From a virus: a stretch of 39,696 nucleotides of DNA. Positions 32,412-33,587 of this stretch are shown here, in pieces (position 1 is the first letter of the stretch; every line of letters starts with the position of its first letter). Location of the stretch: positions 1 to 39,696 of the IMG/VR virus record IMGVR_UViG_3300021378_000060. One strand, 5' to 3'. Below the pieces are notes generated by a model that saw nothing but the letters and a program-made list of their open reading frames with translations, made no database searches and was not told where the DNA came from. Position numbers and translations under genes: made by a program.

Positions 32412-32660
32412 TTACTTTCCTAACTTTGCTTTTAAGGCCGCTCTTTTCTTTTCTAGCATTGCCGCTTGTCTTATTTTTCTACCTAATGGTAATGACTGTA
32501 TCATTTCGTATGTTCCGCCTTTTTTGGCTGTCCATTCTACTCTAACTGATTTACTTTTTGTATTACCTTGAAAAGATCGTACTGCTTTCCGGTAACTCAT
32601 TTCTTCTTTAGTTTCTACATTGTCTCCGTCGTAGAAAGTATATGTTCTCATTTTGGCCAT
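32412..32660 (-). CDS. Small basic protein, 82 aa
   Basis: MAKMRTYTFYDGDNVETKEE, then RKAVRSFQGNTKSKSVRVEW and a basic helical C-terminus (QAAMLEKKRAALKAKLGK). Start overlaps the stop of the gene upstream (32660). The N-terminal half looks like a small beta-sheet domain. No function recognised. Confidence 0.72.
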   Translation of the reverse strand: MAKMRTYTFYDGDNVETKEEMSYRKAVRSFQGNTKSKSVRVEWTAKKGGTYEMIQSLPLGRKIRQAAMLEKKRAALKAKLGK

Positions 32661-32854
32661 TATTCTATCTCCGTTCTTACAATATGTTTTCGTAAGGCTC
32701 TAACTAGTTCTTCAATTTTATCTACTACAGATATCATATCTTTGTCTGTAATGTATTTTTGTCGTTCACGAAGTCTGTCGTATTCCTTTAAAGGAATTGT
32801 TACTGTACTTTGTTCATTTTCAAAAGTTGCGTCAACTGATCTATCATCTGTCAT
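32660..32854 (-). CDS. Small charged protein, 64 aa, first gene of minus-strand operon
   Basis: MTDDRSVDATFENEQSTVTI then a charged helix (PLKEYDRLRERQKYITDKDM, EELVRALRKHIVRTEIE), possibly a coiled coil. ATG 32854 has a GGAGAG site. I see no convincing promoter on the minus strand just upstream. Function unknown. Confidence 0.7.
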   Translation of the reverse strand: MTDDRSVDATFENEQSTVTIPLKEYDRLRERQKYITDKDMISVVDKIEELVRALRKHIVRTEIE

Positions 32855-32939: not shown

Positions 32940-32968
32940 TTGACTTTTTGGTTAAAAGATAGTATAAC
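32940..32968 (+). promoter_or_regulatory. Sigma70-type promoter of the tmRNA locus
   Basis: TTGACT, 17-bp spacer, TATAAC; +1 near 32975 at the start of the tmRNA acceptor piece. Confidence 0.65.
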
Positions 32969-32974
32969 TATATA

Positions 32975-33037
32975 CGTAACGTTGAAGCAATTCAAACGCT
33001 ATTCAGGACCCCGGGGCGGTACCGGGCGACTCCACCA
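32975..33037 (+). ncRNA. ssrA: Permuted tmRNA, acceptor piece
   Basis: Ends with CGACTCCACCA: CGACTCC pairs fully (one G-U) with GGGGTCG at the start of the coding piece (33243-33249), and ACCA is the aminoacylated tail. Just upstream is a T-arm, CCCGG / CCGGG (33010-33014, 33022-33026), with a 7-nt loop GGCGGTA. AACGCTATT (32995-33003) pairs with AATAGAGTT (33271-33279) of the coding piece, forming part of helix P2. This order, acceptor first, is that of the two-piece tmRNA of Alphaproteobacteria. The 5' end is approximate. Confidence 0.85.
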
Positions 33038-33052
33038 TAAGGACATTGAAAA

Positions 33053-33241
33053 ATGGAAATTATTTGGCATATACTATTAACAGTTTGTTCAGGCTCGACC
33101 TGCTTAGAACAAGATGTACAATGGTTTGAAACTAAAGCACAGTGTGAAACTATGCTTGTAGAATACGTAGAAGTACCAAGTGATGGATCTTGGGATACAG
33201 TTGAATACATCTGTAAGCCTGTAGGTTCAATGTCTTTATGA
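33053..33241 (+). CDS. Small protein encoded inside the tmRNA intervening segment, 62 aa
   Basis: MEIIWHILLTVCSGSTCLEQ followed by FETKAQCETMLVEYVEVPSD, SWDTVEYICKPVG. A hydrophobic N-terminus (possible signal or anchor) and four cysteines are visible. AAGGAC precedes the ATG. I recall similar Cys-containing short proteins (CLEQDVQWFE...GSWxTVEYxC) in marine T4-like phages. Its ribosome site begins two bases after the CCA of the acceptor piece, and its stop ends one base before the coding piece, so it fills the segment that is cut out when tmRNA matures. Translation would have to use the precursor or excised RNA. Confidence 0.8.
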   Translation: MEIIWHILLTVCSGSTCLEQDVQWFETKAQCETMLVEYVEVPSDGSWDTVEYICKPVGSMSL

Positions 33242-33242
33242 T

Positions 33243-33420
33243 GGGGTCGAAATAGGATCGACTGGTAGTTAATAGAGTTAGTGGAGTTATCCGGATCTAA
33301 GCACGGTTATCGCGAAGAAAACTTATAATTGCAAATGACAATTATGCGCCAGAAATGGCATTAGCGGCCTAGTTTAGGCACGTAGGGGTTGGCAACTTAC
33401 CTGGCAACAGAAAAGTTGCG
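33243..33420 (+). ncRNA. ssrA: Permuted tmRNA, coding piece with tag ANDNYAPEMALAA
   Basis: Begins GGGGTCG (acceptor 5' strand), then AAATAGGATCGAC (D-loop-like). The tag reading frame starts at GCA 33331 and ends TAG 33370-33372, coding for ANDNYAPEMALAA, with the usual AND start and LAA end for ClpXP recognition. After the tag a 7-bp hairpin (33392-33398 with 33413-33419) and possible pseudoknots follow. tmRNA with SmpB rescues stalled ribosomes. The 3' end is approximate. Confidence 0.88.
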
Positions 33421-33547
33421 TACTATAAAGAGAAATATAAATACTGTATATACAAAAGCACCTTTAACTATAACAAAAGAACACAGTATAGAACGGACTC
33501 TATCCACGCCGTAGGCGACTTACATATAAAATAAGTATATTTAAAAG
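33421..33547 (+). other. AT-rich tail of the tmRNA locus
   Basis: No gene seen. Contains a perfect late box TATAAATA (33436-33443) and a small CGCC/GGCG hairpin near 33515; possibly trailer sequence of the tmRNA precursor. Confidence 0.4.
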
Positions 33548-33575
33548 ATAGGAGTGTTGGAAACAATGCTCCTAT
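33548..33575 (+). terminator. Intrinsic terminator of the tmRNA locus
   Basis: ATAGGAG / CTCCTAT stem followed by TCTTTTAT. Confidence 0.75.
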
Positions 33576-33587
33576 TCTTTTATCAAC

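Follow-up and report, generated by a model that had tools for sequence, protein, structure and literature searches.

Precursor transcripts of phage permuted tmRNAs appear to double as messenger and rescue-RNA precursor in many marine phages

Introduction

tmRNA is the RNA that rescues ribosomes. In its permuted form, the acceptor piece precedes the coding piece, and the intervening segment (IVS) that separates them is predicted to be excised. The locus described here belongs to one IMG/VR virus record of 39,696 bases, the whole of which was analysed and is called the window below. A complete protein gene fills the IVS of its tmRNA, which raises the question of how a segment bound to be discarded can also be translated. 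The initial annotation saw two ways out: either one transcript is both mRNA and tmRNA precursor, or the excised loop is itself translated. The analysis reported here favors the first; in many marine phages the tmRNA precursor transcript appears to double as messenger and rescue-RNA precursor.

The Permuted tmRNA of the Window

Judged from its sequence, the region 32976-33424 is an intact alpha-type permuted tmRNA (Table 1). ARAGORN calls a permuted tmRNA at 32944-33463. Infernal matches RF01849 (alpha_tmRNA) to 32942-33424 with 107.4 bits for a gathering threshold of 50, a check proposed in the initial annotation, and RF04321 (tmRNA_permuted) to 32976-33372 with 104.8 bits for a threshold of 47. 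The pairings of the acceptor stem and T-arm noticed there are complete across the reversed pieces, CGACTCC pairing with GGGGTCG at 7/7 positions and the T-stem at 5/5. The tag frame ends with a stop and encodes a hydrophobic C-terminus. Intact tags and model matches in many independent contigs rule out a decayed tmRNA, a pseudo-tmRNA or an artefact. The possible promoter lies just upstream of the acceptor piece; it is absent from the list of a consensus scan, which demands a T at position 6 of the -10 element. As for the terminator-like hairpin, one was found vs 0.5 expected in shuffles.

Table 1. Features of the tmRNA locus and of its nested gene (window coordinates).
Feature	Position	Strand	Remarks
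Possible sigma-70-like promoter TTGACT-N17-TATAAC	32940..32968	+	Read from sequence; weak
tmRNA acceptor piece	32976..33037	+	T-arm, acceptor 3' strand; RF04321 and RF01849 alignments
5' helix arm ACCATAAGGACATTGA	33034..33049	+	Contains CCA and Shine-Dalgarno; pairs 33227-33242; MFE fold
Encoded CCA of acceptor piece	33035-33037	+	Acceptor strand CGACTCC-ACCA ends 33037
Intervening segment (IVS), 205 nt, predicted excised	33038..33242	+	Between CCA and coding piece
Shine-Dalgarno AAGGA	33039-33043	+	9 nt before ATG
62-aa gene MEIIWHILLTVCSGSTCLEQDVQWFETKAQCETMLVEYVEVPSDGSWDTVEYICKPVGSMSL, family F1	33053..33241	+	ATG 33053, TGA 33239-33241
3' helix arm TCAATGTCTTTATGAT	33227..33242	+	Last codons, TGA and one base; pairs ACCATAAGGACATTGA
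Predicted RNase P cut	33242/33243	+	5' end of coding piece
tmRNA coding piece	33243..33424	+	Rfam alignments
Acceptor 5' strand GGGGTCG	33243-33249	+	Start of coding piece
Tag reading frame ANDNYAPEMALAA*	33331..33372	+	ARAGORN
Intrinsic terminator-like hairpin	33547..33576	+	13 pairs; T-rich tail to about 33586

In the vicinity of the tmRNA, the minus strand of 32660-32854 encodes a 64-aa protein with weak similarity, below the cut-off, to T7 gp5.9 (PF25708, E 0.005). T7 gp5.9 is a RecBCD inhibitor.

The Gene Nested in the Intervening Segment

The IVS consists almost wholly of a 62-codon gene of a family termed F1. The initial annotation described it as complete, with a ribosome site beginning two bases after the CCA and a stop codon separated from the coding piece by a single base, and each of these details is borne out. 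Its reading as a gene called for conservation in related phages. Among the 22 distinct IVS copies compared, none departs from a length of 189 nt or has a break in the frame; their dN/dS is 0.20, with changes mostly at third codon positions, and the same DNA read in two shifted frames yields pN/pS values of 0.66 and 1.75. The protein is 69% identical to a homologue in the cultured OM43 phage Melnitz (tblastn), and 144 relatives were found in IMG/VR. Their settings are varied: some lie in tmRNA IVSs or just upstream of tmRNAs, others follow a PAAR gene or, directly, the CCA of a tRNA, and still others are found in different places. Given this purifying selection, the constant 189-nt length, and the homologues that are ordinary phage genes elsewhere, the F1 ORF is, on sequence grounds, a real protein-coding gene, and its translation is predicted.

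A spurious ORF in an IVS conserved as structured RNA only, or a tmRNA decayed by an insertion, would be the opposite interpretation. The IVSs of Rhodobacter and Ruegeria phages lend it some substance, as they are long and apparently non-coding, and thus long structured IVSs exist. However, a spurious ORF is countered by the dN/dS, the third-position bias and the homologues in unrelated contexts, and a decayed tmRNA by the intact tags, the acceptor and T stems and the Rfam scores. Both variants are refuted by these selection, homologue and tmRNA-integrity tests, and retain a negligible probability.

The AlphaFold (AF2) model of the F1 protein is a confident one, with a pLDDT of 90, and displays a beta-beta-alpha-beta arrangement. 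It has no structural match at E up to 0.001 in the PDB or BFVD; the top PDB match, 8g9s chain A, was rejected as a structural relative, being too weak (E 0.13). Pfam and PHROGs contain no family for this protein, nor for most other IVS proteins. A promoter of its own was also considered, and the strongest promoter-like site in the IVS, 33046-33075, was rejected because its -10 element falls downstream of the start codon and cannot serve the gene.

In a DNA tree, counting the changes forced by well-supported branches, F1 has moved into or out of the IVS at least 4 times. In five contigs (L011, L050, L073, L079, and L080), the F1 gene directly follows the CCA of an ordinary tRNA gene, as it follows the tmRNA acceptor piece in the window, hinting at recombination between tRNA-like ends. 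In L055 (464-820), F1 closely precedes a tmRNA with an IVS of only 28 nt, in which both arms of the helix described below are retained, TAAGGACATT..ATGTCTTTTTGAT; this contig likely represents an intermediate in the gain or loss of an IVS gene.

Recurrence in Phage tmRNAs

Nested genes extend beyond the locus of the initial annotation. A DNA pattern for the coding piece, picked without reference to any ORF, retrieves at least 106 unique permuted tmRNAs from IMG/VR. In this ORF-independent set, 24 of the 64 IVSs of at least 75 nt combine an ORF that spans 60% or more of the IVS with a Shine-Dalgarno sequence (SD) at most 18 nt from the CCA, while shuffles yield a mean of 2.2 and a maximum of 7. 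When the loci found via the 62-aa protein are taken in, unique phage IVSs of 75 nt or more number 89; of these, 35 harbor an SD-preceded ORF over at least 60% of their length, compared to 0.88 expected from dinucleotide shuffles. The tmRNAs themselves are intact: Rfam finds one in 20/20 representative ORF-bearing loci, and 98 of 106 distinct coding pieces have intact tags, the remainder looking like misses of the simple pattern. Used as a blastn query, the coding piece of the window matched no phage records; the phage relatives were retrieved with the Melnitz and F2 tmRNAs as queries.

The same pattern applied to bacterial genomes yields at least 105 unique tmRNAs. Their IVSs have a median length of 31 nt and a maximum of 116, vs a median of 94 nt at the phage loci, and an SD-preceded ORF filling the IVS occurs in none of the 105 unique bacterial tmRNAs listed. 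The statement in the initial annotation that the IVS is normally short and non-coding thus holds for these controls.

By homology, the nested genes fall into at least seven unrelated families: F1, F2, F3, F4, F6, F7, and F8. Among the matches listed, F1 is inside an IVS at about 30 of 81 loci, including three (L027, L029, and L031) overlooked by the automatic detector because their coding piece reads TAGAC. On the same basis, the IVS houses F2 (38-44 aa, one TM segment) at 65/80 loci, F3 (the Melnitz type, MFKWL..KYLSG) at 18/18, F4 (MDEV..YICINNYS.RHARL..) at 48/72, F6 (75 aa) at 3/7, F7 (77 aa) at 15/20, and F8 (65 aa) at 2/6. F3 is present, unannotated, in the tmRNA IVS of the cultured phage Melnitz. 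The dN/dS of IVS copies is 0.17 for F2, 0.40 for F3, and 0.18 for F4, with shifted-frame pN/pS controls of 0.66-1.82 across families. All families except F3 are also known as ordinary genes outside tmRNAs. T4-like genes for replication (helicase loader, thymidylate synthase, exonuclease) occur on the contigs of F2 and F3, and baseplate-like genes on one F1 contig.

This diversity is what would be expected of a neutral cargo slot, the strongest rival to a regulatory role. The excised IVS would tolerate insertions, and small genes would settle there by compaction and recombination, borrowing the tmRNA promoter and a ready-made TGA without any regulatory link to the tmRNA. At least seven families share the slot, and its contents are exchangeable, since in L346 and L347 the IVS houses F6, F2 being located elsewhere. 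The repeated moves of F1 fit as well, and selection is alike inside and outside the IVS: the copies of F1, F2, and F4 outside display dN/dS values of 0.15-0.17, similar to those inside. The position of the ribosome-binding sites, examined in the next section, weighs on the other side.

Some IVSs have a more complex content. That of L528 and L529 (388 nt) has room for a second small ORF before F7, and that of L106 (499 nt) contains an F3-like ORF followed by a 120-aa ORF. In L139, L158, and L173, IVS positions 14-91 hold a second, overlapping ORF of 23-25 aa with the motif LGDSDEEPS.KK; it starts at the SD adjoining the CCA, ahead of the F2 start, making translational coupling of the two possible. 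Cultured phages of Rhodobacter, Ruegeria, and Mesorhizobium (L509, L510, L512, and L513) possess permuted tmRNAs that are unannotated in their records, with IVSs of 93-111 nt that appear non-coding.

The Precursor Helix

The two ends of the IVS are complementary and prolong the acceptor stem (about 20 bp), and both the SD and the stop codon lie within this helix, a feature beyond those noted in the initial annotation. In the window, 15/16 positions of the two arms are paired, and the segment from acceptor strand to acceptor strand through the IVS folds with z = -5.9. The helix is conserved. In the 109 phage tmRNAs whose IVS measures 40 nt or more, pairing in register involves 12.2 of 14 IVS-end positions, and sliding the arms by 1-3 positions lowers this value to 4.1-7.6. 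When arms are exchanged at random among 128 tmRNAs (78 distinct 5' arms), 9.4 +/- 0.1 pairs form vs 12.0 observed. In F4, the ninth pair of the helix is A-T, G-C, or G-T and is paired in 23/23, a compensatory change.

Position 2, a C opposite an A, is unpaired in nearly all cases, and this A together with U(-1) forms the leader dinucleotide A(-2)U(-1), which RNase P prefers (PMC9433436). U(-4)G(-3) of the IVS 3' end pair with the CCA, and 108 of 139 phage IVSs end with TGAT, next to the coding piece. The constraints on the RNA alone would thus place a UGA a single base ahead of the mature 5' end, and it is on that UGA that the F1 and F2 genes end. The last sense codons of F1, TCT TTA, are invariant in 22/22 IVS copies, with zero synonymous change, and are also found in L057, an IVS copy that belongs with this set; copies outside tmRNAs end differently (SRGT, STST, SIAS, SISS). 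The constraint on the RNA appears, therefore, to have rewritten the C-terminus of the F1 protein. IVS ends pair in bacteria too, at 9.4/14 positions vs 6.8 in shuffles; as bacterial tmRNAs share the helix, it probably exists for processing, and the SD, where it overlaps the helix, could have been accommodated there without serving regulation.

In F1 and F2, the ribosome-binding site occupies one strand of the helix, and the last codons and stop the other; in F8, the SD is also located in the helix arm beside the CCA. Folding predictions for the window give the SD a probability of being unpaired of about 0.55, falling to 0.00 once the 3' arm is made. In growing F1 and F2 transcripts, this value is about 0.4-0.8 before the 3' arm and 0.00-0.01 after it. 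The SD is thus predicted to be paired in a repressed state, as in an SD-sequestering riboregulator, with a probability of being unpaired of 0.00 in the full precursor. The families are not uniform: the F3 SD is placed in the loop, close to its edge, and remains accessible (0.66), and that of F4 is only partly hidden in the fold.

These data bear on the neutral cargo slot in both directions. Against it stand the SD within the helix arm beside the CCA in F1, F2, and F8, and the association between an ORF and an SD close to the CCA (24 IVSs with an ORF and 5 lacking one, vs 14 and 21; Fisher p 8e-4), although both may result from the need for an SD at all. The unsequestered SD of F3 agrees with it. 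On the whole, such a slot is a possible but rather doubtful explanation.

A Model for Translation and Maturation

The preferred reading, which we consider probable, is that the IVS acts as a coding cassette, translated co-transcriptionally before closure of the helix and maturation to a two-piece tmRNA. One transcript would carry the acceptor piece, the small gene, and the coding piece. As long as the polymerase is inside the IVS, the SD beside the CCA would be partly accessible and ribosomes could load. Once transcribed, the 3' end of the IVS would pair with the SD arm, lengthening the acceptor stem and shutting the ribosome site. The closed helix would then set the stage for RNase P to cut at the A(-2)U(-1) junction and for 3' trimming to the CCA, releasing the two-piece tmRNA. 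The progress of transcription would be the switch between open and closed SD. Since folding leaves the SD open only until the second strand is made, we infer a co-transcriptional translation that excludes maturation; the two would be mutually exclusive on each molecule and joined by a single promoter. F3 falls outside this switch, because its SD remains open.

Of the alternatives left by the initial annotation, a transcript that is both mRNA and precursor is the more likely one, and translation of the excised loop is disfavored for F1. An excised IVS serving as a real message, translated as a short mRNA after tmRNA maturation, would profit from the fact that the SD, start, and stop of F1 and F2 are all contained in the IVS, the stop being followed there by a single base, and that the F3 SD is accessible in the excised IVS (probability 0.63). 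In contrast, the SD of F1 and F2 stays paired in the excised IVS, with predicted values of 0.01-0.03, and F4 would lose its stop. We hold such a message to be improbable.

The case of F4 suggests a further possibility. Its ORFs end with ..MGAK*. For most distinct IVSs, the TAG is part of GGGGGCGAAATAG, and it lies 11-13 nt into the mature coding piece. Maturation would thus leave the message non-stop: RNase P would remove the stop, and late ribosomes would become substrates of the new tmRNA, a feedback with a documented precedent in arfA (PMC10107115). It is inapplicable to the window ORF, whose stop is inside the IVS, and we regard it as unlikely.

Taken together with the co-transcriptional cassette, these elements may define a new bifunctional RNA class, a proposal to which we give somewhat less than an even chance. 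The precursor would be an mRNA and the processing helix a translational off-switch, so that protein comes first and tmRNA second; in F4, maturation would make the message a non-stop one, to be acted on by the same tmRNA; and the slot would have been filled repeatedly, by at least seven families. One transcript would face two exclusive fates, translation or incorporation into the machinery that rescues translation. Why marine phages own a tmRNA, how a precursor is processed when ribosomes occupy it, and whether coupling small proteins to ribosome rescue aids infection can now be tested.

Comparison with Known Systems

The initial annotation was not aware of any description of this arrangement. 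As regards the nested gene this stands, literature searches having retrieved no account of a tmRNA IVS with a protein gene; nor is such a gene known to be described in older work (Keiler 2000, Sharkady 2004, Mao 2009). It does not stand for the two-piece phage tmRNA, as that of phage Melnitz has already been published, together with a glutamine riboswitch (PMC9004378; MZ577097). Melnitz, a T4-like marine phage, resembles the window in that its permuted tmRNA is phage-borne, is of the alpha type, and has an IVS ORF of its own (F3); its F1 homologue is just upstream of the tmRNA. The IVS gene is absent from the Melnitz paper (PMC9004378), in which the word "intervening" is never used, and the GenBank record has no CDS there. 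Genes of the IVS are thus hidden under the RNA feature even in a cultured phage, an annotation blind spot.

The glutamine riboswitch follows the tmRNA coding piece in L081 (5607-5655), L404 (3303-3351), L201 (1903-1956), and L121 (1019-1072), and in Melnitz it precedes the gene of a late-transcription coactivator. Contrary to the published Melnitz reading, its location seems to suit control of the downstream gene better than control of ssrA.

Other nested genes are known in tmRNAs. In the passages found in a database paper on tmRNA from 2025 (PMC11915505), a tRNA gene and a repeat are mentioned as the contents of two IVSs, and none is described as holding a protein gene. The tRNA gene, a tRNA-Ala, is nested in the IVS of a permuted tmRNA from one nominally archaeal genome; a gene is thus located in the IVS as it is here, but it is an RNA gene rather than a protein gene. 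According to the same paper, group I introns with homing endonuclease genes occur in the tmRNA T-loop and are self-splicing (PMC11915505). They too place a protein gene inside a segment removed from a tmRNA, whereas here that segment is the IVS of a permutation. A group I intron was rejected in the window, the Rfam scan listing tmRNA models only and no intron match, and the IVS proteins have no endonuclease match in Pfam or PHROGs.

With arfA (PMC10107115), the common point is that F4-type ORFs would lose their stop by RNA cleavage and become tmRNA substrates, and the sequence agrees with such a removal for F4 only. In contrast, the window ORF keeps its stop, as 33239-33241 lies inside the IVS, and the cleaving event would here be tmRNA maturation itself.

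The closest relative is the two-piece tmRNA of alphaproteobacteria (RF01849; Caulobacter, Orientia), with the same order of acceptor piece, IVS, and coding piece, the CCA, the acceptor and T stems, a tag ending in ALAA, and paired IVS ends. A short non-coding IVS is typical of its bacterial members, without defining them; that of the window, in contrast, is 205 nt long and is a protein gene, with its SD in the precursor helix. The RNA class is therefore a known one, and what is new is the recurrent, possibly regulated, coding role of the segment it discards: the spacer of a much-studied RNA is a recurrent and selected home for phage genes.
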